DNA of 39,189 nucleotides from Oscillospiraceae bacterium. Lineage in GTDB: Bacteria > Bacillota > Clostridia > Oscillospirales > Ruminococcaceae. Positions 2,027-37,521 of the stretch are shown piece by piece. The notes beneath the pieces are model-generated. The model saw only the letters and a program-made list of their open reading frames with translations, did no database searches and had not been told where the DNA came from. The number at the start of each line of letters is the position of its first letter. The first letter of the stretch is position 1. The stretch lies in the NCBI GenBank assembly GCA_016281125.1, contig JAEEIA010000035.1:1-39189 (forward strand), given 5' to 3'. Both the position numbers and the translations under genes were made by a program.

Positions 2027-3301
2027 TCAGCTTTCTTTGTAGGCCTTTCGCGCCGCGGCGGAATTATACTTGTCGAAGATGCTGTTCATAGCTTTCTGCG
2101 CTGCCAGCACAGTACCTGACTGCATTCCCATAGCTTGCAGTGTCAGCGTCAGATAGCCGAGAGCGATTTCGTTGAAGCATCCGGAATCAAACAGTATATC
2201 GTCTTTATCATGCAGTGAGGAATGTATTGCTTCTGAGCATTTTCCCTGAGTATCAAATGTGACAGGTGTGTCAACTTTATCTGTTTTTCTTTTATCTGAT
2301 ACTGACTCCTTGATCCATGACTGCACATATTTACCGGCTGTACGCCATGCTAGCCAAATACTCCTGATATTTCGGAAATCTGCCGGATTGGAAAAAGAAA
2401 TAGTAATTCGGTCATAACCGCATTCAATTGCTATTCCTTCATCAACAGTCAAATAGTTATTTCTACACTTCCTGCGGAATTCATTGACAAAATCAACGCT
2501 GTTCTTATGCAGTGCAGCGTCACGCAATTCATCAGAAATAAGATACATGAGTTGATGTTTCATAGTTTCAAATAGGATTTCTCCATCCCAGCGCAAATCT
2601 TTCGGCGCAGAAGTAGCATCATCTACGGCTTTATCCCTTATTGTTTTGGGCGTTATTTCTCGTAAATCACCCTCTGCCAGTACTTGCTGTTGCTCTGGTT
2701 CCAGCTTTGCAATCTCATTCGCAGTATTGATAGAGATCCTACCGTCAGATACCGCTTCCTGTATTTCTGTTGAAGCACTGCTGCTGATATGCTGCAATTT
2801 ACTAACCTGTGAGCGAGATAAATGCAGCTGCCGTGCAAGTTCTTCACGCATACTGCCGAATTTTACCCCTTCCGCCTTTTGCTTTTTCAAATATTGATCT
2901 AATCGCTGATACGACTGCCAGATTTCGTTATCATTCAGCTGTCGGGCAGTGACATTCAGGAGAATCAGGTCTAATTCAAGGGTTTCCTGGCTGTTATAGT
3001 GTTGAACCAAACAGGGGAGAAGACGGGATATCGCTTCGCCGCGATCCAGCAATAGACGAACTGCTGCCTTCCGCCTGTGTCCGGAGACTATCATATAGCC
3101 CCCGCTTTCCATCGGTGTGACAACCAGATTGTCTTTTATTCCGCCCTGACCGAGAATTGCATCCGCAAGTTCCGCTATATTGTCCATGCGAAAGAAATTA
3201 CTTGGGGAATCGTGCAATTCATCAATGTCAATCATTCGGATATTCTCATTTTGCGTGTTCTGAGCAATTGCCGCCAGATTACTGAGCATCATCTTTGCCA
3301 T
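2027..3301 (-). CDS. parB: ParB/Spo0J-like partition protein
   Basis: ParB proteins bind a parS site and, with ParA, move or retain a replicon. This 424-residue protein shows the ParB N-terminal nuclease-like CTP-binding fold (residues about 20-120) with the arginine box GHRRKAA at 74-80. A helix-turn-helix follows near 150-175 (ELARQLHLSRSQVSKLQ) and then a long C-terminal part. It is longer than chromosomal Spo0J (about 280 residues), as plasmid and element ParBs often are. The start ATG lies 2 bases after the parA stop, and the ribosome site AAGGAG is inside the end of parA, so the two are translationally coupled. The codons for VDTPVTF near residue 343 lie in a 24-bp repeat shared with parA (see the repeat entries). 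That may make the gene carry its own binding site. Confidence 0.88.
   Translation of the reverse strand: MAKMMLSNLAAIAQNTQNENIRMIDIDELHDSPSNFFRMDNIAELADAILGQGGIKDNLVVTPMESGGYMIVSGHRRKAAVRLLLDRGEAISRLLPCLVQHYNSQETLELDLILLNVTARQLNDNEIWQSYQRLDQYLKKQKAEGVKFGSMREELARQLHLSRSQVSKLQHISSSASTEIQEAVSDGRISINTANEIAKLEPEQQQVLAEGDLREITPKTIRDKAVDDATSAPKDLRWDGEILFETMKHQLMYLISDELRDAALHKNSVDFVNEFRRKCRNNYLTVDEGIAIECGYDRITISFSNPADFRNIRSIWLAWRTAGKYVQSWIKESVSDKRKTDKVDTPVTFDTQGKCSEAIHSSLHDKDDILFDSGCFNEIALGYLTLTLQAMGMQSGTVLAAQKAMNSIFDKYNSAAARKAYKES
2255..2278. repeat. 24-bp direct repeat, copy 1 (candidate parS, inside parB)
   Basis: This stretch is identical over 24 bases to 3325-3348. Its core is the inverted repeat TGACAGGTGTGTCA (2260-2273), with 5-base arms TGACA and TGTCA around GGTG. 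In both copies it is read in the same frame and gives K/E-VDTPVTF. Identity through wobble positions in two otherwise unlike genes argues for selection on the DNA, and a ParB binding site is the obvious candidate. Confidence 0.6.
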
Positions 3302-3303
3302 GG

Positions 3304-4008
3304 TCAGACCACTCCTTTCGGCTGAAATGTGACAGGTGTGTCAACTTTTTCGAGACGCTCCATCATCTCCAATGCCAGATTGTCGTATGCATCAACGATT
3401 TTCCAACTGGTCGGAGAACGAGGAACCTTTTTATCAATAAAGTATGCTTCAATGGGTAAGCCTGCTTTCAGGCTCTCGCGCACCGTGCGGGAAAAGGGGA
3501 TAACAGTTCGCATCATCTGAGCATCCAGAACATTCTGAAATTCCGTAAGTATTGCCGCATCATTTTCTTTCTGATACATTGTGATAAAGATGCCACCAAG
3601 CCGCGCTTGCTGTTTTGATATCTCAACTGTTACTTTTTTCAAACCTGCAACCTCAAATTCTCCAAGCAAGGTCGGCACAAAGACAATTCCGCTGTGGTGA
3701 ATGATTCTTTTGACTTCATCTGTCATAGCCGGAGGCAAATCAAACACGATATAGTCGAATTGGTCTGTTTCACAAGCATCCAATTCAATATATCGTGTCC
3801 ATGTTGTATGCTTTATGTTCTCATAATCGCTGGGGAGGATTGGACTTGAATCCTTAGCGGTCATAAAGAACATAAAGCAGTTTTCCTGTTGATCGCAGTC
3901 TACGACCAGCACCTTCTTCCCTGCTTTTTGAAAGCAGTATGCAAGATTGATGACAGATGTTGACTTCGCAACACCGCCCTTATTGTTATACAATGCTATT
4001 CTTATCAT
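3304..4008 (-). CDS. parA: ParA-family partition ATPase
   Basis: This 234-residue cytosolic ATPase carries the deviant Walker A box KGGVAKST (residues 10-17) with the signature lysine, the A' motif VLVVDCDQQ (34-42) and the Walker B-like YIVFDLPP near 86-93. ParA proteins bind DNA without sequence preference as ATP dimers and are stimulated by ParB to position a replicon. The short N-terminus without a helix-turn-helix is of the type Ib/Soj kind, which does not itself repress the operon. ATG 4008 follows AGGAGA. The last 15 residues contain VDTPVTF, encoded by the 24-bp repeat at 3325-3348. parB follows after 2 bases. With the integrase upstream, the pair suggests an integrative element that stabilises its circular form. 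Confidence 0.92.
   Translation of the reverse strand: MIRIALYNNKGGVAKSTSVINLAYCFQKAGKKVLVVDCDQQENCFMFFMTAKDSSPILPSDYENIKHTTWTRYIELDACETDQFDYIVFDLPPAMTDEVKRIIHHSGIVFVPTLLGEFEVAGLKKVTVEISKQQARLGGIFITMYQKENDAAILTEFQNVLDAQMMRTVIPFSRTVRESLKAGLPIEAYFIDKKVPRSPTSWKIVDAYDNLALEMMERLEKVDTPVTFQPKGVV
3325..3348. repeat. 24-bp direct repeat, copy 2 (candidate parS, inside the 3' end of parA)
   Basis: This is the second exact copy of the repeat at 2255-2278, with the same TGACA/TGTCA inverted core at 3330-3343. It covers the third-from-last stretch of parA codons. I saw no further copy in the window. Confidence 0.6.
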
Positions 4009-4038
4009 GGCTATTCTCCTTTATGCTTTCGTTCAGGA

Positions 4039-5073
4039 TTATATGGAATCAAAGAGATTGTCAAAGAAAACATCCAGTCTTTCGGCTGCTTTTCGCTTCA
4101 TTTCGTCAATGCAATGACAGTAAACATCCAGCGTAAAAGCCGCCGAAAAGTGTCCGAGGTTGTATTGCAGAGTCTTCGGGTCCATTCCCGCTTGCAATGA
4201 CATGACTGCATATGTATGGCGCAGATCATGAAACCGCACTTTTTCACAACCAATCGAAGAGATAACCTTTTTGAAAGAGTCATAAACAGCGGGAGGGGTA
4301 AGATGTGTCCCGACTCTTGATGGAAATACAAAATCATCGGGATCATGTCGTATTTGTGCATCCAGTCTTATCAGAATGTCCATTGCATGACGATTGAGAG
4401 CCAACACTCTCGTCCTGCCGCCCTTGGGATCGCACCAATAGTATTCATTTGTATCTTTGTTGTACTGAATTTGCCGATAGATATTCATGGTCTGATTGGG
4501 TAGATCAAGAGCACTCCAGGTTAAACCAATGATTTCTCCCTGTCTCAGACCAGTATAGAGAGTGAAGAGAAAGAGGTCGCGTTTCGGATGGTTTTTCAGG
4601 CGTTTATAGAGTGCTTTCAGTTGTTCCTGATTCAAAGGGTGATAGGCATACTGCGGAATAGCCGGGAGCATAACCCCATCAGCAGGATTGGAAGTGATTA
4701 AACCCATCTTTTTGGCGGTTTCAAGCCCTACATGAAGCACTCCAAAGTAATTGTGGATCGTTTTCGGCTGCAACGGAGCTGATAATCCGCATCCGACCAT
4801 AAGGCTATTAACAAATAACTGGCAATCTTCAAATGAGAGTTCGTCCAGTCGCAGATGCCCTAGCACACGGATAATATGACAGTTAATCGACACACTATAT
4901 GTGTACCGAGTGGACTTTCCAAGATGGATAGTATGATTTCCATGCCATTCCCGGAACCATTCTGCAACAGTTGTAACATTCAGTACGATGTTTTCTTTAG
5001 GGTACAAACTGCGCATTTGCTCCAAGATCGTAGGATCATTAGGGACTTCACAAGCATTTTTCTTTTCAAACAT
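4039..5073 (-). CDS. int: tyrosine-family site-specific integrase
   Basis: This 344-residue phage-type integrase catalyses integration and excision through a 3'-phosphotyrosyl intermediate. A SAM-like core-binding domain spans about 32-125 and the catalytic domain about 145-325. All catalytic residues can be placed: Arg177 (TGLRQGE), Lys217 (DPKGGR), His282 and Arg285 (HDLRHTY), His308 (LGHFS) and the nucleophile Tyr318 (DVYCH). The usual N-terminal Arm-binding domain is short or missing. ATG 5073 is preceded by GGAGG. It lies 30 bases upstream of parA on the same strand. Upstream are two strong minus-strand hairpins (5184-5293), which would shield the gene from outside transcription, and then a candidate attachment site near 5402-5429. 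It appears intact, so the element may still be mobile if both ends are present. Confidence 0.93.
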   Translation of the reverse strand: MFEKKNACEVPNDPTILEQMRSLYPKENIVLNVTTVAEWFREWHGNHTIHLGKSTRYTYSVSINCHIIRVLGHLRLDELSFEDCQLFVNSLMVGCGLSAPLQPKTIHNYFGVLHVGLETAKKMGLITSNPADGVMLPAIPQYAYHPLNQEQLKALYKRLKNHPKRDLFLFTLYTGLRQGEIIGLTWSALDLPNQTMNIYRQIQYNKDTNEYYWCDPKGGRTRVLALNRHAMDILIRLDAQIRHDPDDFVFPSRVGTHLTPPAVYDSFKKVISSIGCEKVRFHDLRHTYAVMSLQAGMDPKTLQYNLGHFSAAFTLDVYCHCIDEMKRKAAERLDVFFDNLFDSI

Positions 5074-31126: not shown

Positions 31127-31670
31127 AGGTTTCCATCTGTTTGCCCAGGAACTGCGCCGCGGCACTGATCAGAGAAAGCTGCAAATCTGTCGGCAGATGC
31201 ATCTGATCCGCCGGATCCAGAAACGCGACCGCGCCTGTGACGTCGCCTGCCGTAATAACCGGCAAACAGCAGAACGCCGTCCGCGGCAATCCCTCCACCG
31301 GACGCAGATGCGTGCTGTCGCTTTCCTTGGCTCCGTAAATTCTGCGGTTCTCCATCAGATCTTCCAGCTCCGGCGAAACCCGGCGCTCGTAAAACTCCTT
31401 TTTCTGCGTGCCGGATACCGCAACAACATGGTCGCGGTCAAAGACCAGTACCGCACAGCCCGCAAGACGCTGCATGATGTCCGCGACCTGCACGGCGTTT
31501 TCACTCATTTCTCCCAGCACCGAATACTTCCGGAAGATAACCTCTCCGTCCGCACTCGTGTATATTTCAAGGGGGTCTCCTTCCCGGATTCTCATCGTTC
31601 TGCGGATTTCCTTCGGGATGACTACCCGCCCTAAATCGTCGATTCTGCGTACAATACCTGTTGCTTTCAT
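31125..31670 (-). CDS. spoVT: stage V sporulation regulator SpoVT (AbrB-GAF)
   Basis: SpoVT is a forespore transcription factor that tunes sigma-G-dependent genes. The 181-residue length fits the B. subtilis protein (178). The N-terminal AbrB swapped-hairpin (1-50) reads MKATGIVRRIDDLGRVVIPK and then EIRRTMRIREGDPLEIYT. The GAF-like part (about 55-178) has VQVADIMQRLAGCAVLVFDRD and ends AAQFLGKQMET. ATG 31670 follows AGGAGG. Upstream is GCATA-N14-GCAAACAATA, which fits a sigma-F/G promoter, as expected since B. subtilis spoVT is made by sigma-G. A decayed paralogue with the same promoter lies at 37035-37325. Confidence 0.93.
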   Translation of the reverse strand: MKATGIVRRIDDLGRVVIPKEIRRTMRIREGDPLEIYTSADGEVIFRKYSVLGEMSENAVQVADIMQRLAGCAVLVFDRDHVVAVSGTQKKEFYERRVSPELEDLMENRRIYGAKESDSTHLRPVEGLPRTAFCCLPVITAGDVTGAVAFLDPADQMHLPTDLQLSLISAAAQFLGKQMET

Positions 31671-31715: not shown

Positions 31716-31744
31716 TATTGTTTGCCGATTGCGGAAGAATATGC
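31716..31744 (-). promoter_or_regulatory. forespore-type (sigma-F/G) promoter of spoVT
   Basis: On the minus strand GCATA (31740-31744) is 14 bases from GCAAACAATA (31716-31725). The sigma-F/G consensus is roughly GHATA, then a -10 like GGnRAnAnTA or CATnnTA. The same two boxes with the same spacing precede the paralogue at 37035. Confidence 0.6.
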
Positions 31745-32033
31745 AGCTGACAGTTATTTCCGGCATTTCATGCCATCTGTCCCTATAATTTGCAGGATAC
31801 GGTATCATCTTTTCATGGCATAATCAAGCCTTTTGATATTTTTTCAGATTGATTTATAGCGGATTAGTTATATGATGCGACTATACTGTATGCGTCGCCA
31901 TTTTTGCTTTCAATTAAGAAAAAGCAACAATTTTGTGTAGTTTCCCATTGAAATATACGATATAATATGATATGATTAAGATAGACTTTTATCCGAATAG
32001 GCATTCGAGAATCAACAGCTTGGGAGGCGTATT
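31745..32033. other. A+T-rich divergent intergenic region before mgtA
   Basis: No reading frame or known riboswitch was found. There is a good -10 (TATAAT, 31961-31966) without a clear -35 at 17 bases (TAGTTT), which suggests an activator or a weak promoter for the ATPase. An imperfect hairpin GCGAC/GTCGC lies near 31877-31901. I looked for an M-box (Mg2+) element and did not see one. Confidence 0.5.
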
Positions 32034-34652
32034 ATGGCTGAAAACAAGAACGAAAAGAAACGGGCAGCTGAAAAAGAGCTTGCCGAAATCGCAAAACTCT
32101 CCGACGAAGAACTGTTTCAAAGGCTTGACACAGACCCCGAGGGCCTGAATCAGGTCGAGGCAGCAGACCGTCTGGAAGAATACGGCAGGAATATCATCGA
32201 CACGGGAAACGAAAACAGTCTTGCCAAGCGTATCCGGGAAGCGATCATCAATCCGTTTAATATCGTGCTGCTGATTGTTGCGGCTGTTACGCTAGTGACG
32301 GATGTGATCATTGCTGATAAACCCAGCTGGGCAACATTCCTGATGCTGATTTTTGTGGTCGCGGTGTCCGGCGTCATCTCCTTTGTGCAGGAGGAAAAAT
32401 CGAACAGTGCTGCACAGAAGCTGCAAAACATGATCACGAACAAGATCGACGTGATCCGGAACGGCAGCACAATGGAAATCAGCATCGAAGAGGTCGTGCC
32501 CGGCGATGTGGTCAGGCTTGCGTCCGGTGACATGCTCCCCGGCGATGTGCGTTTTATCGAAACGAAAGACCTGTTCACCGACCAGTCGCAGCTGACCGGC
32601 GAAAGTCAGCCGGTCGAGAAGTTTGCAGGCCCCGATCCGGAAGGCGACGACATCACGGAGCTGGACAACATCGGCTTCATGGGCAGCAACATCATCTCCG
32701 GCAGCGCAAAGGCGGTCATCCTGACAACGGGCAACAACACCTATCTCGGCAGCATGGCGAAAAGCCTGAACACCTATCAGGACAAGAGCAGCTTTGAACG
32801 CAATATCAACTCGATCAGCAGCCTGCTCATCAAGTTCATGGTCGTGATGGTGCCGATCATCTTTATTGCAAACTTTATCACGAAGGGCAGCTGGCTCGAT
32901 TCGCTGATGTTCGGCATCACGATTGCGGTCGGACTGATGCCGGAGATGCTTCCGGTCATCATGACTTCGTCGCTTGCAAAGGGCGCTGTCAATATGTCGA
33001 AGAAGCAGACGATTGTAAAACGCCTCGGCGCGATCCAGACATTCGGCGAAATGGACATTCTCTGCACCGACAAAACCGGCACATTGACACAGGATGAGAT
33101 CGTGCTGGAAAAATATATGGATGTGCTCGGCCGAGAGGACAAGCGTGTGCTGCGTCATGCGTTCCTGAACAGCTACTTCCAGACCGGACTGAAAAATCTC
33201 ATGGATGTGGCGATCATCAACCGCGCCGAAAAGGAAGAACTGTCCTATTTGAAGGAAACCTATGTCCGCGAAGACGAGATTCCGTTTGATTTCAGCCGCC
33301 GCCGCATGAGCGTGGTGCTGCACGATAAAAACGGCAAGCGTCAGCTTGTGACAAAGGGCGCGGTCGAGGAAATTCTGTCGATTTGCAGCCATATTGAGAT
33401 TGAGGGCGAGGTCAAACCGATCACGCAGGAATTGATCGACAATGCGCAGAAGATTGCAACGGAAAACAATCTTGAGGGTATCCGCGTGATTGCAGTTGCG
33501 CAGAAAAATCAGCTCCGCGATGCAGGTGATTTCGGCGTAGAGGATGAAAGCGATATGGTGCTGATCGGCTTTGTCGGATTCCTTGATCCGCCGAAGCCCT
33601 CTGCGGAATCCGCAGTCAAGGCGCTGCAAAAGAACGGCGTGCGCACCGTTGTCCTGACCGGTGATGCCGAGGGTGTTGCAATCAACATCTGCGGGCGGCT
33701 CGGCATCCCGACGGAATATACACTGACCGGCGCAAAGGTCGAGGCAATGACCGATGAAGAACTGCTCGCCGCCTGCGAAAAATGTCACATCTATTCCAAG
33801 CTGTCGCCATATCAGAAGCAGCGCGTGGTCAAGGCGTTCCAGACGAACGGTCATACGGTCGGCTATATGGGCGACGGCATCAACGACAGCCTGCCGCTGA
33901 AACAGGCGGATGTCGGCATTTCCGTCGATACGGCAGTCGATATTGCAAAGGAAGTCGCGGACATTATTCTGCTTGAAAAAGACCTGAATGTTCTGGATGA
34001 AGGCGTGATTGAGGGACGGCGCACCTTTGCCAATATGTCGAAGTACCTGAAAATGTCGGTCAGCGGCAACTTCGGCAATATGTTCTCCGTACTGATCGCA
34101 AGTATTTTCCTGCCGTTCCTGCCGCTGCTGCCGATTCACATTCTCGTGCAGAATATCCTCAATGACTTCGCGCAGCTCGGTATGCCGTTTGACCATGTGG
34201 AGGATGAGAGCATCCGTCTGCCGAAGAAATGGAACATCCCCGGCATCAAGAAGTTCATGGTAATCTTCGGCCTGCTCAGCACTGTGCTGGATGTACTCTG
34301 CTTCCTGGTGCTGTGGTTCGTGTACCGCTTCAACCATGAGAGCCTCGCAGGATTCTTCCAGAACGGCTGGTTCATGTTCGGCGTCATATCGCAGACAATA
34401 GTCATTCATACGATCCGTACCCCGAAAATGCCGTTTCTCAAAGACCGGGCATCCGCGCAGCTCAGTCTGTCAACGCTGCTGGTCGTGATCGCAACTTTGC
34501 TGATCGGCTTCACCGGCATTGCAAAGCTGTTTGATCTGCCGGTCATGGTGCCGTCCTATCTGCTCTGGCTTGCCGGACTGATGATCGTTTACACGGTTCT
34601 CGCGCAGATTCTCAAGCGCATCTATATGAAATTCAACCATGAATGGGTATAA
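32034..34652 (+). CDS. mgtA: MgtA-type Mg2+-importing P-type ATPase (P3B)
   Basis: The 872-residue ion pump has the P-type order: actuator loop with LTGES (187-191), phosphorylation site CTDKTGT with Asp346, nucleotide domain with KGA and MVLIGFVGFLDPPKP, and hinge MGDGINDS (near 617-624). Ten spans are expected. The membrane segment VGLMPEMLPVIMTSSLAKGA (near 299-318) is the MgtA/MgtB signature and separates it from Ca2+ and Na+ pumps, so Mg2+ uptake is likely. The N-terminus has a charged extension (MAENKNEKKRAAEKE) as in MgtA. GGGAGG lies before ATG 32034. The usual Mg2+-sensing leader was not found. Confidence 0.93.
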   Translation: MAENKNEKKRAAEKELAEIAKLSDEELFQRLDTDPEGLNQVEAADRLEEYGRNIIDTGNENSLAKRIREAIINPFNIVLLIVAAVTLVTDVIIADKPSWATFLMLIFVVAVSGVISFVQEEKSNSAAQKLQNMITNKIDVIRNGSTMEISIEEVVPGDVVRLASGDMLPGDVRFIETKDLFTDQSQLTGESQPVEKFAGPDPEGDDITELDNIGFMGSNIISGSAKAVILTTGNNTYLGSMAKSLNTYQDKSSFERNINSISSLLIKFMVVMVPIIFIANFITKGSWLDSLMFGITIAVGLMPEMLPVIMTSSLAKGAVNMSKKQTIVKRLGAIQTFGEMDILCTDKTGTLTQDEIVLEKYMDVLGREDKRVLRHAFLNSYFQTGLKNLMDVAIINRAEKEELSYLKETYVREDEIPFDFSRRRMSVVLHDKNGKRQLVTKGAVEEILSICSHIEIEGEVKPITQELIDNAQKIATENNLEGIRVIAVAQKNQLRDAGDFGVEDESDMVLIGFVGFLDPPKPSAESAVKALQKNGVRTVVLTGDAEGVAINICGRLGIPTEYTLTGAKVEAMTDEELLAACEKCHIYSKLSPYQKQRVVKAFQTNGHTVGYMGDGINDSLPLKQADVGISVDTAVDIAKEVADIILLEKDLNVLDEGVIEGRRTFANMSKYLKMSVSGNFGNMFSVLIASIFLPFLPLLPIHILVQNILNDFAQLGMPFDHVEDESIRLPKKWNIPGIKKFMVIFGLLSTVLDVLCFLVLWFVYRFNHESLAGFFQNGWFMFGVISQTIVIHTIRTPKMPFLKDRASAQLSLSTLLVVIATLLIGFTGIAKLFDLPVMVPSYLLWLAGLMIVYTVLAQILKRIYMKFNHEWV

Positions 34653-34714
34653 CCGATCTTTTCCAAATTGCGAAGGGATACCGCAATGATCTGCCATAAA
34701 AATCCGATCTATAC

Positions 34715-34743
34715 TTGACTATTCATTTAAAAATTGATATAAT
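34715..34743 (+). promoter_or_regulatory. promoter of the 34803 gene
   Basis: TTGACT (34715-34720) and TATAAT (34738-34743) are 17 bases apart. Confidence 0.8.
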
Positions 34744-34802
34744 ATTTATAATTCCATGTTATCCTCTGCGGAAATATGGAAAATCTATCAGGAATCAGGT
34801 GA

Positions 34803-35723
34803 ATGAGTATGATTCGTACAAATGTTGTGACTCTGACTGTGATCCATGCGATCGCCTATCGTCAGAAACTCCCGTCCGGAGGCTCCGGTATCACGATCTA
34901 TCGTTATGATACCGTTCAGCCTGGTATCGCATCCATCAGCAAGTCTTCCGGCAAGGCTATTCCTGCTGCAAACACTTCCAGAAAGCTGTTTCCGCAGGCG
35001 GCATTCAGTGAAGCAATCGAGCTGACAGCCGGTATGCCGTACAAAAAGCAGAAGGGTGTCCGTGTTGCCGAAGAAAAAGTCGTGGAGACCGAGGAGCCTG
35101 CTGAGGAAGCTGTTGCAAAAGAGGATGCGGCTGTCATCGACAGTGCCGATTATCAGAAAATCGTTGCCAAGTTCACTGACAAGAAAGGCAAGCTCTCCTA
35201 CGATCTGCTCAACCGTGAGCTGATTAAGTATGCCAAGAAAAGTGCTCAGGTGCGCAGCCTGATCGAAAGCAAGGCAACAGCTGATGAAATCTGCTTTGAG
35301 ATTGCAAAAGCCAAGTTCAAGGAGATTACCGGAAATGCAATGCTTTCGGACGATCAGATCAGAAAGGCGATCGAGCTACTGGATGAGGTCAGTCCCAAAG
35401 GCGTTTTCAAGGAGCTGAACAGCGAGATTCGTCTGATGCTCAAGAGACCGACCGCAGCGAAAGCTGCCGCAAAGAAGCCTGCACCGAAAGCAGCGGCATC
35501 CGTAAAGTCTGCCACGAAAGCAACAACTGCACCGAAGGAAACTGTCAAGATTCAGTTTGGTGCTGATGAGTATGACTTTGCCGAGATCAAAAAGGCTGTC
35601 GAAGCTGACTGCAAGAGCAAGGTTCAGGGCAAGATCAAAGCCATCGAGATCTACATCAAACCGGAGGATAAAGCTGTCTACTATGTTGTCAACGGCGACT
35701 TCTCCGATAAGATTGACCTGTAA
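34803..35723 (+). CDS. DUF6465-like protein with Ala/Lys-rich linker
   Basis: The 306-residue protein shows three parts. Residues 1 to about 90 are basic and Ser/Ala-rich, residues about 110-215 are helical, and an Ala/Lys/Pro-rich linker (about 218-245) is like those of histone-like proteins. The last 60 residues (VKIQFGADEYDFAEIKKAVEA, then IYIKPEDKAVYYVVNGDFSDKIDL) match what I remember of the DUF6465 family of Clostridia, whose members also carry Ala/Lys linkers. Function is unknown; the basic linker suggests nucleic-acid contact. The start ATG 34803 is 9 bases after AGGA. It has its own promoter and a terminator at 35737-35772. The family call is from memory. Confidence 0.65.
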   Translation: MSMIRTNVVTLTVIHAIAYRQKLPSGGSGITIYRYDTVQPGIASISKSSGKAIPAANTSRKLFPQAAFSEAIELTAGMPYKKQKGVRVAEEKVVETEEPAEEAVAKEDAAVIDSADYQKIVAKFTDKKGKLSYDLLNRELIKYAKKSAQVRSLIESKATADEICFEIAKAKFKEITGNAMLSDDQIRKAIELLDEVSPKGVFKELNSEIRLMLKRPTAAKAAAKKPAPKAAASVKSATKATTAPKETVKIQFGADEYDFAEIKKAVEADCKSKVQGKIKAIEIYIKPEDKAVYYVVNGDFSDKIDL

Positions 35724-35733
35724 GAGTATATAG

Positions 35734-35772
35734 AAAGTGCGTGAGGTCAGCATTGACTTCGCGCACTTTTTG
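35734..35772 (+). terminator. terminator of the DUF6465-like gene
   Basis: AAAGTGCG-GAGGTCA and TGAC-TTC-CGCGCACTTTTT form a long stem with small bulges around GCAT, followed by TTTTT. Confidence 0.75.
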
Positions 35773-35784
35773 GCAATAATAGAA

Positions 35785-35817
35785 GAGCAGCTGCCCGCGG
35801 GCGGCTGCTCCTCTTCA
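35785..35817. terminator. G+C-rich hairpin after the Spo0A_C gene
   Basis: GAGCAGC-GCCC and GGGC-GCTGCTC pair with one mismatch around GC. It lies 42 bases past the stop of the minus-strand gene at 35859; the T-run on that side is poor. Confidence 0.55.
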
Positions 35818-35858
35818 TTCGGCTGTTATGCAGAGGAAATTCAGATTCATTTTTGAAA

Positions 35859-36335
35859 TTACAAGGCAGATGAAGATACAGCTGCCGTTTGCTTGTCTGA
35901 TGAAGGCTCATGAACGGAGACATCACCTATTTCCTGATCAAGAAGAAGTGTCTCCATCGCCACAGCAAGTACTTCAGAAATATATGGTTTTCTTGTATGA
36001 TAATAGAAAACTGATTGCAGTTGTTCCGGATCATTTCGCGCAGCTGATTCGATTGCAGATCGGATATTTCGTTCAACAGCATTCGGCGTTGTATGATATA
36101 TTTCTGCAACTGCCGGATAAAGCAGATTTGTCAGTGAGGAAAGCAGGTATGGTTCTTTCTTTCCGAGGACAATCGCAGTAATCAGATACGAATAGCCTCT
36201 CAGATGTGAACGGATGCACATTTTTCGGACAAACTGCTTAGCAGCTAATACTGTGCGTTCGATCGGCAGTCCGTTGTTTTGCGGGAACAGTACTTCTGTA
36301 CGCTGTTCAGCAGAAAATAAAGTGATTGGTGACAT
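35859..36335 (-). CDS. stand-alone Spo0A C-terminal DNA-binding domain protein
   Basis: Spo0A is the master switch of sporulation. Its C-terminal domain binds 0A boxes. This 158-residue protein carries the Spo0A_C fold at about 32-135, with HLRGYSYLITAIVLG, TNLLYPAVAEIYHTTPNAVERNIRSAIE (the recognition helices, with the expected VERxIRxAIE) and ends with KPYISEVLAVAMETLL. The receiver domain with the phospho-Asp is absent; in its place are about 30 unrelated residues. A Ser/Ala-rich acidic tail follows. It might compete for or share 0A boxes without needing phosphorylation; that is inference. ATG 36335 follows AAGGAG. A promoter like that of spoVT precedes it. Confidence 0.82.
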   Translation of the reverse strand: MSPITLFSAEQRTEVLFPQNNGLPIERTVLAAKQFVRKMCIRSHLRGYSYLITAIVLGKKEPYLLSSLTNLLYPAVAEIYHTTPNAVERNIRSAIESAARNDPEQLQSVFYYHTRKPYISEVLAVAMETLLLDQEIGDVSVHEPSSDKQTAAVSSSAL

Positions 36336-36353
36336 TGAATTCTCCTTGTATTT

Positions 36354-36382
36354 TATTATATGAGCACACAGATTCTGTATGC
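36354..36382 (-). promoter_or_regulatory. candidate forespore-type promoter of the Spo0A_C gene
   Basis: On the minus strand GCATA (36378-36382) is 14 bases from TCATATAATA (36354-36363). The -10 shares CA-A-AATA with the two spoVT-type promoters and also resembles the sigma-G CATnnTA. TATAAT within it could also serve sigma-A, though then the -35 (CGCATA) is poor. Confidence 0.45.
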
Positions 36383-36426
36383 GGCATACCTTTTTCCGTT
36401 GTCTTCAGCAGACACACAATTACCGA

Positions 36427-36455
36427 TTGACTTTTTTCGTCTTATATGCTATAAT
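36427..36455 (+). promoter_or_regulatory. promoter of the 36589 gene
   Basis: TTGACT (36427-36432) and TATAAT (36450-36455) are 17 bases apart. Confidence 0.8.
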
Positions 36456-36497
36456 ATACATTGGCTTTATAGGCTTTCTAAGATATTCTCCTTATGC

Positions 36498-36510
36498 TAG
36501 TATTATACTA
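36498..36510. promoter_or_regulatory. 13-base palindrome in the leader, candidate operator
   Basis: TAGTATTATACTA is a perfect palindrome about an odd base. It lies 43 bases after the -10 and 79 before the start codon, where a bound regulator could block transcription. Confidence 0.4.
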
Positions 36511-36588
36511 AGTAATGCAGAAAATAGCAAGCTCAAAAAAGTGTCGTAAACGTATCTTAAAATGAACCGGAAAGGAGATTTTCGTACC

Positions 36589-37080
36589 ATGGAAATCGAA
36601 AAAATGAAACGCAAAACAATCAAAAGACTAAAAGAGATTAAATCAGAGCAGGGACTGACGATACCAAAAATCATGGATCTTCTGGAAGAACGCGGACAGT
36701 TCGTATCAGAATCCACGATTAAGCGTGTGTTTGCAGACGGCTCAGAGGAGCAGAGTTTTCGGTATCAGGATAGTATAGCACCAATCGCAGATGTCTTGCT
36801 GGATATCTACGGTGATACCAGCAATCTCGAAGATGCAGACTCTTTGCGTCATATTATTCGAGAAAAGAATAAACTGATTGAATTTCTGATGATAAAACTG
36901 GATGAGAAAGAATCAGAATTCGAGTCACGCAAAACAATGTATGAAGAGCGAAAAAATATATATGACAAGAACATTGCCAGACTTGAACAGCAGATTGAAA
37001 GAAAAGATGATCTGATTGAACAATTACTGAATGCCTATCTGCCTCTGTCAGCATCCCTCCGTTCCGAAATGAAAACCTGA
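36589..37080 (+). CDS. HTH protein with C-terminal coiled coil
   Basis: The 163-residue protein starts with a helix-turn-helix-like region (about 8-65: IKRLKEIKSEQGLTIPKIM, then VSESTIKRVFADGSEEQSFRY), like XRE-type regulators with a short wing. A long charged coiled coil follows (about 85-148), with heptads such as LIEFLMIKLDEKESEF and IARLEQQIERKDDLIEQLL. It is probably a dimeric DNA-binding protein; related forms turn up on Clostridia mobile elements. I chose ATG 36589, with AAAGGAG 11 bases before it; the ATG at 36562 overlaps this site. Its last 46 bases overlap the end of the spoVT-like pseudogene on the other strand. Confidence 0.72.
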   Translation: MEIEKMKRKTIKRLKEIKSEQGLTIPKIMDLLEERGQFVSESTIKRVFADGSEEQSFRYQDSIAPIADVLLDIYGDTSNLEDADSLRHIIREKNKLIEFLMIKLDEKESEFESRKTMYEERKNIYDKNIARLEQQIERKDDLIEQLLNAYLPLSASLRSEMKT

Positions 37081-37325
37081 CATCCCCGATTATACAGTAT
37101 GAACGAACCGCCGTATGCAACACAATGCAGACGGCGGATCTGTTTTTTCAGTTCCCGATGTACCGTTTTTTCGCAGATTCCACCCCCTATGCAGAACATC
37201 AGATCTTGCGTCAATGTTTTCAGTAAGGGGGCGCCCTCCCGGATTCTCGTGGTTCTGCGGATTTCCTTCGGAAAGACGACTCTCCCGAGATCGTCTAATC
37301 TGCGTACAATACCTGTTGCTTTCAT
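37035..37325 (-). pseudogene. decayed, shortened SpoVT paralogue (AbrB domain kept)
   Basis: The first 34 residues differ from SpoVT at only a few places (MKATGIVRRLDDLGRVVFPK, then EIRRTTRIREGAPL). After that the frame breaks: one base is missing before the CCCCC run. Reading the alternative frame gives ENIDARSDVLHR, which lines up with EIYTSADGEVIFR of SpoVT. Further on, the original frame resumes with GGICEKTVH against GEMSENAVQ. The GAF part then ends early, at 96 residues instead of 181. So small indels have scrambled residues about 35-50 and the tail is lost. The ribosome site (AGGAGG) and the forespore-type promoter are intact, so a short AbrB-domain peptide could still be made. It overlaps the convergent gene by 46 bases. 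Confidence 0.72.
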
Positions 37326-37347
37326 TTTGTGCCTCCTGTTTGGTTTG

Positions 37348-37521
37348 TTATTGAGATAGCTTATCGGTATTGTTTGCCGCAGATGGGGATTTATGCATTG
37401 ACAGATAATCCTGATATGCAGACTGCCATTTCCAATCCCTTGCCCGTATCTTCCCTTTCTTCAAACGACTGTCATCCTCCGGAATCTGCGCGGTCAGTTC
37501 TTTCAGGTCTAACGTCTGCAT
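37348..37521 (-). CDS. short reading frame, possibly a gene remnant
   Basis: A 57-residue frame begins MQTLDLKELTAQIPEDDSRL and continues KKGKIRARDWKWQSAYQDYL. Its make-up is protein-like, with no signal or membrane segment, and I do not recognise it. There is no ribosome site before the ATG; the frame stays open upstream to a TTG at 37557. The -35 box of the spoVT-like paralogue lies inside its end. It is either a fragment of a lost gene or a small unknown protein. Confidence 0.3.
   Translation of the reverse strand: MQTLDLKELTAQIPEDDSRLKKGKIRARDWKWQSAYQDYLSMHKSPSAANNTDKLSQ
37368..37396 (-). promoter_or_regulatory. forespore-type (sigma-F/G) promoter of the spoVT paralogue
   Basis: On the minus strand GCATA (37392-37396) is 14 bases from GCAAACAATA (37368-37377), identical in both boxes and spacing to the spoVT promoter, while the spacers differ. 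Confidence 0.6.

Follow-up and report, generated by a model that had tools for sequence, protein, structure and literature searches.

Recombinase–SpoVT fusions and severed spoVT 5' ends in Ruminococcus suggest an element family that integrates in a sporulation gene

We analysed a 39,189-nt stretch of contig JAEEIA010000035.1 (the window) of an Oscillospiraceae bacterium whose genome is G000 in our set. On its minus strand it carries an intact gene for the sporulation regulator SpoVT and a truncated second copy of this gene, with further genes lying between the two (Table 1). The intact protein matches the TIGR02851 model over its whole length with 183.6 bits, below the curated cut-off of 235.9, which was reached in none of the 30 genus genomes in our SpoVT profile search. 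The truncated copy had been described as a decayed paralogue in a first-pass annotation of the window. Judged by its sequence, it is an attachment-site scar consisting of the spoVT promoter and codons 1–33 followed by a conserved tail, and it belongs with a family of mobile elements whose large serine recombinase probably integrates in spoVT.

Truncated spoVT copies and their promoter

The scar is composed of promoter, leader, codons 1–33, an arm of the element attachment site (attP) with the recombinase tail, and a hairpin; by eye, its recombinase tail carries a frameshift. The unit common to the truncated copies is spoVT codons 1–33 ending in G-D-P plus about 25 further codons, typically SLKTLTQDMVFCMSVESAAERYIGK, and many copies end by eye in a terminator-like hairpin. 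A DNA search with one copy gave matches in 26 of the 30 genus genomes, up to 14 per genome, including fragments and the 5' ends of intact spoVT genes. At loci with at least two separate matches all lie on one strand (28/28, some loci overlapping), and contig C35 of G020 holds an extra match on the opposite strand 65 kb away. The stretch between ATGAAAGCAA and CCCC is deleted in three copies (L047, L054, L084), and this deleted form occurs in G020 and repeatedly in G022.

As the first-pass annotation had noticed, the window contains three matches to GCATA-N14-NCANANAATA, all on the minus strand, where 0.01 are expected; three or more arose in 0 of 100 shuffles. The genome-wide scan that it had proposed returned these as the only matches in 3.9 Mb and none for the backwards pattern. 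Two of the three sites agree in their boxes (GCATA-N14-GCAAACAATA) but not in their spacers, again as described. Within the genus, GCATA-N9..19-GCAAACAATA matched 45 times in 19 of the 30 genomes (backwards control, 2) with a nearly fixed spacer, namely N14 in 42, N15 in one and N13 in two matches, both of the latter without a spoVT start downstream. After re-sorting into 43 distinct matches, seven stand upstream of an intact spoVT and 28 precede a spoVT 5' piece with the conserved tail, three of these pieces having most of the 33 codons deleted; the rest include one tail without 5' codons, four matches at contig ends and the two N13 matches with neither. A 29th piece with tail, L071, was missed by the sorting expression and seen by eye. 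Outside the genus, matches to a looser pattern looked chance-like, with mixed boxes and matches in forward and backward controls as well. In distant relatives, a loose promoter form (G[ACT]ATA, 13–15 bases, xxAxAxAxTA), counted without a chance control, lies upstream of 10 of the 11 spoVT 5' pieces read.

The third window site, in front of a Spo0A-domain gene thought to have the same promoter, has a different -10, TCATATAATA, and in the G025 homologue, the only one compared, GCATA is missing and TATAAT kept. It is therefore not part of the set, and the match is probably due to chance. Of the forespore promoters originally proposed, the one upstream of spoVT is supported as a promoter of forespore type, its loose form recurring in distant relatives; what follows the second site is a spoVT 5' end severed by a mobile element instead of a paralogue, and the grouping of three genes did not hold. 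In C. difficile the promoter of spoVT has been read as resembling both sigma-F and sigma-G promoters, a G and an A standing nine bases apart around its -10 (PMC3789822), a spacing that GCAAACAATA also shows, and the two promoter types overlap in that species (PMC7438776). The C. difficile gene is under the control of sigma-F and sigma-G, and the formation of heat-resistant spores requires it (PMC3789822).

The search for sigG suggested earlier found SigG in the window's own genome with 376.4 bits over one curated cut-off of 372 and, by another model, with 365.3 bits under a cut-off of 457; SigE scored 356.7 bits (cut-off 339). The sigma-70 family profile gave 64 matches, 53 of them over the cut-off, and 10 of the 64 were classified. 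Two RpoD-like genes adjoin on contig C28. The genome has one gene for a small acid-soluble spore protein (SASP), which is present in 24 of the 30 genus genomes, and in a promoter comparison covering 21 of 26 SASP matches its promoter scored like shuffles (74/100). Sporulation of R. bromii is reportedly the subject of a paper (PMC5814915).

Split spoVT genes and recombinase junctions

The genus set comprised 30 genomes including the window's own and was sorted by the SpoVT profile search; most genomes in the analysis are metagenome-assembled genomes (MAGs). spoVT is split in 14 genomes (G004, G006, G007, G010, G011, G012, G018, G019, G022, G023, G025, G027, G028, and G026, where it is cut by a contig end) and intact in 14 (G000, G001, G002, G003, G005, G008, G009, G013, G014, G016, G020, G024, G029, and G021, where it is partial at a contig edge); two (G015, G017) have neither form and none has both. 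Split genomes encode a large serine recombinase that continues in frame into the part of SpoVT that begins at residue 33. Recombinases of at least 76% identity occur in exactly these 14 genomes, all other matches having at most 33%. Since the recombinase is absent from G000 (best match 29% identity), it is the scar that speaks for a past insertion there. A clear 5' piece (residues 1–32 or more) was found in 10 of the 14 split genomes; the profile search gave none in G004, G006 and G010 and part of one in G027. Assemblies often break at the spoVT 5' repeats, and in split genomes the gene may be called broken or absent.

Named genomes, among them R. flavefaciens ATCC 19208 and 007c, contributed 49 recombinase loci, including loci of Lachnospiraceae MAGs at 59–61% identity. 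At 43 of the 49 the recombinase is joined in frame to SpoVT; the other six are L273 in the attP state, L283 unfused, L284, L294 and L298 cut before the junction, and the unrelated L301. We examined 32 follow-up genomes, picked for holding the recombinase. All 18 of the first set are split, 13 of them also having a 5' piece, and of the further 14 ten have the fusion, three are partial (G079, G081, G091) and G080 has an intact spoVT. In G080 (L283, L350) an unfused, differently ending recombinase lies elsewhere in the genome. In all 7 genomes with both parts on a single contig (G012, G022, G061, G062, G071, G072, G073), the 5' part lies upstream on the same strand, 11 to 57 kb from the 3' part, so that, as in skin-type elements, the coding sequence of a sporulation gene is split with both parts in one orientation.

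The cut, seen in many relatives from gut and rumen, falls at one place, codons 31–33, with the core GGCGACCC. While the right junction is the fusion itself, the left junction consists of the spoVT promoter and codons 1–33, followed by some 25 codons from the end of the recombinase gene. The core is found at right junctions, and left junctions have either the identical core or a form that differs by one base. Around it the junction arms are inverted repeats of each other, matching at 15–19 of 19 positions in eight genomes against a shuffled mean of 5.4 (ten genomes were tried, two of which gave no arm). Such arms around a common core are the pattern expected for the attP of a serine recombinase. 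Comparing right with left junctions, the arms of G018 (TCACTGAAAACATTGACAC and its complement) match 19/19 around the identical core. Those of G022 likewise match 19/19, but the core of the left junction nearest the recombinase, GGCGCCCC, is one base off that of the right junction; the window scar has this same variant.

The tail is the native end of the recombinase gene, because 53 of 55 distinct tails are open in its frame, against 4 and 38 in the other two frames, and because on contig L273, which represents the joined attP state, recombinase, core and tail continue in one frame up to the contig end. L371, the left junction of the same genome, has the core variant of L273, G-D-T. As the junction sequences show, attP thus lies within the 3' end of the recombinase gene, and insertion swaps the C-termini of both proteins.

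Two other candidates were set aside. A dispersed miniature inverted-repeat transposable element or a small-RNA gene as the source of the repeats was dropped once the recombinase–SpoVT fusions appeared. The tyrosine recombinase considered as agent is an Xer-like enzyme found, among the matches listed, once per genome in most genus genomes, and it was dropped since it also occurs in genomes without copies; seven stretches were read. A screen by expression for recombinases and tyrosine integrases in 1146 open frames at 47 array loci gave four weak flags, none convincing.

Selection on the severed parts and competing explanations

For the 3' parts the median ratio of nonsynonymous to synonymous substitution rates (dN/dS) was 0.150 in fused (39 sequences, 57 usable pairs) and 0.148 in intact genes (14 sequences, 32 pairs). 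For the 5' parts the corresponding ratio of proportions (pN/pS) was 0.069 in distant split genomes (16 sequences), 0.066 in intact genes (14 sequences) and 0.102 in the genus copies including relics (35 sequences), taking only copies with the start kept and no stop and leaving decayed ones out. By these estimates both severed parts are under purifying selection, which makes regular rejoining of spoVT probable. It is unlikely that a fragment of 33 residues functions by itself, so selection most likely acts on the rejoined gene.

Intact genes carry traces of exchange as well. Among 13 of them the identity of the first 99 bases is unrelated to that of the rest (rho -0.04, Mantel p 0.55; third positions only, rho 0.20, p 0.07), and 99-base windows within the 3' rest track it at 0.38–0.64. 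The window spoVT is 85% identical to both G020 and G024 in its 3' part and 71% and 73% in its 5' part; compared with G008, the values are 67% and 91%. In G003 the intact gene has a promoter and first 33 codons nearly identical to those of truncated copies from G025 and G011, and it switches after them. The 5' ends of intact genes thus have another history than their 3' ends, which points to swapped promoters.

We therefore favour, with a probability of roughly 0.75, an element family with a large serine recombinase that integrates in spoVT, rejoining by excision keeping both parts under selection. The recombinase would insert the element at codons 31–33 by recombination between attP and the chromosomal site attB. 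It would also excise it, with a frequency in the lasting cell line sufficient for both parts to stay under selection, and thereby place the spoVT 3' part back behind its forespore promoter. Excision during sporulation is what the selection estimates together with the one attP contig suggest. Less surely, recombination at different members of a row of left junctions might strand cargo, swap promoters and leave scars, and the window, where an outer scar is followed by 5.4 kb of cargo and by an intact spoVT with 5' and 3' ends of different history, could represent such a state.

Several observations weigh against this reading. The split could be a tolerated loss in non-sporulating lines. L273, a contig that ends some tens of bases beyond the core, is the only sign of excision or of a circle, and a directionality factor was not identified. 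The recombinase promoters look by eye sigma-A-like and not sporulation-specific. In G022, the left junction closest to the recombinase may be inactive, its core being one base off the right junction. Taken over all pairs, pN/pS of the 3' parts amounts to 0.407 for fused against 0.258 for intact genes, which may reflect somewhat weaker constraint on the fused parts or simply their greater divergence; synonymous sites are close to saturation in the selection estimates.

A permanent insertion, in which the host gave up spoVT and the fusion is kept as a working protein, for example with the SpoVT sensor domain gating the recombinase, would account for a fusion that is in frame and open at 43 of 49 loci and for the purifying selection on the 3' parts. 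The in-frame fusion, however, already follows from attP being within the recombinase gene, and the separate 33-codon 5' parts, of which the fusion makes no use, show the same constraint as those of intact genes and keep a promoter of the same form in 10 of the 11 pieces read; we regard permanent insertion as unlikely. The rows of junctions, on the other hand, stand at only slightly less than even odds of having grown through duplication, circles or transfer, by homologous recombination at the ~250-bp repeats and not by recombinase choice among left junctions, which would be compatible with integration and excision as favoured here. The mosaic 5' pieces L056 and L094, which switch within codons 14–33, argue for this route, and the abrupt switch at the core argues against it, L046 and L071 sharing their 5' part with the intact L052 as far as GACCCC and differing beyond. 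That the three window sites mark a small regulon of genes with a common forespore promoter, as first proposed, fits their common boxes and spacing and the SigG and SASP genes of the genome; given that the second unit is met again in other genomes as a junction bearing a recombinase tail and that the third site is not conserved, we consider it highly improbable.

It would be an improbable extension of excision by the recombinase that the spoVT 3' part is joined to one of several promoter-bearing 5' ends by recombination in the spore-forming line. If true, sporulation would rewire spoVT and delete or mobilise the DNA between, amounting to a heritable V(D)J- or integron-like choice in Ruminococcus and some Lachnospiraceae, in contrast to skin, whose excision is not inherited. 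A mobile element that gates spore formation in the lasting cell line and is shed each round is now a testable idea. The recombinase–SpoVT fusion, promoter swapping and rows of 5' ends suggest a route by which mobile DNA could rewire a developmental switch, which bears on the spread of cellulose-degrading Ruminococcus as spores.

Element content, known systems and window features

The fusion at L208 in G025 combines the domains Resolvase, Recombinase, Zn_ribbon_recom and SpoVT_C, the element thus carrying a recombinase of its own. Before it lie a Mob_Pre relaxase (PF01076, 56.1 bits, cut-off 25.5) and an AAA_25 ATPase, which places integrase and relaxase on one element; G022 and G004 encode proteins with the same first residues as these two. 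A Mob-type relaxase accompanies the recombinase in the two elements that were read throughout. Conjugation machinery was not found among ten proteins scanned from two elements. We read the element as integrative and mobilizable rather than as a prophage. Plasmid records gave 105 matches, all below 60% identity, and phage records two at 56–58%, the rest of the matches listed being below 28%; relatives were not found in IMG/VR by a method that detects close relatives only. MT836658.1 (L349), deposited as Bacteriophage sp., holds a recombinase–SpoVT fusion by NAD kinase-, ArgR- and RecN-like genes and is probably a chromosomal piece, and phage record MT839487 stops short of the junction. An AACATTG stretch resembling the attP arm lies by eye near the ribosome site upstream of the recombinase (L208 11150–11310, L332, L341 and others) and may reflect self-regulation. 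The G025 element also carries AAA and DUF2357/PDDEXK_7 genes (L208 124–4978), McrBC-like by inference and perhaps a defence system.

These features suggest an element of the skin type in spoVT. Intervening elements are known in sigK, spsM, spoVFB, gerE and yabG, spoVT being unmentioned in the passages at hand (PMC5595907, PMC10747680). We found no paper on an element in spoVT in the open-licence literature, and the 6,207 serine recombinases with sites of PMC10083194 may include it. The skin element likewise lies within a sporulation regulator gene, sigK of B. subtilis and C. difficile, and uses a serine recombinase, which in C. difficile is made constitutively from a sigma-A-type promoter; skin is prophage-like and, in contrast to the forespore gene spoVT, its target works in the mother cell (PMC5025042). 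The non-phage gin of B. cereus splits the small regulator gene gerE by serine recombinases with a 9-base overlap at the junctions, gerE being rejoined during sporulation; it differs in that gerE is a mother-cell gene and in having three recombinases, for which the passages at hand describe no fusion to the target (PMC5595907). As mother-cell genes, sigK and gerE contain elements whose excision is not inherited (PMC5025042, PMC5595907). Leaving and returning is also described for yin in yabG of C. botulinum and vfbin in spoVFB (PMC10747680) and for SP-beta in spsM (PMC4191935), and SpyCI islands at the mutL 5' end of S. pyogenes act as a switch for that gene, although they are phage-like and mutL is not developmental (PMC4129442). 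Whereas yin, SP-beta and vfbin are prophages or prophage-like and confined to single strains or species, the spoVT element spans Ruminococcus and some Lachnospiraceae, and unlike skin it has its attP within the recombinase gene and forms rows of left junctions. Rows of the staphylococcal cassette chromosome SCCmec at rlmH also combine serine recombinases, one anchor gene and repeated junctions, but spare the anchor gene; the spoVT element cuts it, and the repeated part is a 5' end with promoter. Integron cassette arrays have direct repeats with cargo between and one anchor, and rely on a tyrosine integrase and attC sites, in contrast to the serine recombinase here and to repeats that each bear a promoter and a gene start.

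Table 1. Features of the window related to spoVT, the scar and the DNA between them
Feature	Position	Strand	Basis
Intact spoVT, uncut target gene, 181 aa	31125..31670	-	SpoVT_C 118.6 bits, cut-off 27.5
spoVT promoter, GCATA-N14-GCAAACAATA	31716..31744	-	motif scans
spoVT codons 31–33, GGAGACCCC, putative attB core, cut point in relatives	31572..31580	-	junction position
Truncated spoVT copy ("decayed paralogue"), open frame	37035..37325	-	spoVT codons 1–33 at 37227–37325
Whole putative scar (left-junction relic)	37106..37396	-	profile match 1–293 of 295, E 8e-69
spoVT promoter, second copy	37368..37396	-	motif scans
Scar core, GGCGCCCCC, one base off the common GGCGACCCC	37227..37235	-	sequence
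Cargo between intact spoVT and scar, 5.4 kb	31745..37105	.	gene content
P-type ATPase (cargo)	32034–34652	+	
DUF6465 gene (cargo)	34803–35723	+	
Spo0A_C-only gene, no receiver domain (cargo)	35859–36335	-	
Coiled-coil gene (cargo), divergent from Spo0A_C-only gene	36562–37080	+	
Third motif match, upstream of Spo0A_C gene; judged outside the system	36354..36382	-	G025 homologue

The pair of Spo0A_C and coiled-coil genes also adjoins a left junction in G025, with an identity of only 75%. The cargo ATPase is 90% identical in DNA to its counterpart in G028 and 85% to that in G022, the Xer gene being 77% identical in both pairs, which suggests transfer of the ATPase; alternatively, ATPases may just be better conserved. 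Near the left end of the contig, ParA-like, ParB-like and tyrosine recombinase genes adjoin on the minus strand (2027–5073) and perhaps belong to another integrated element.

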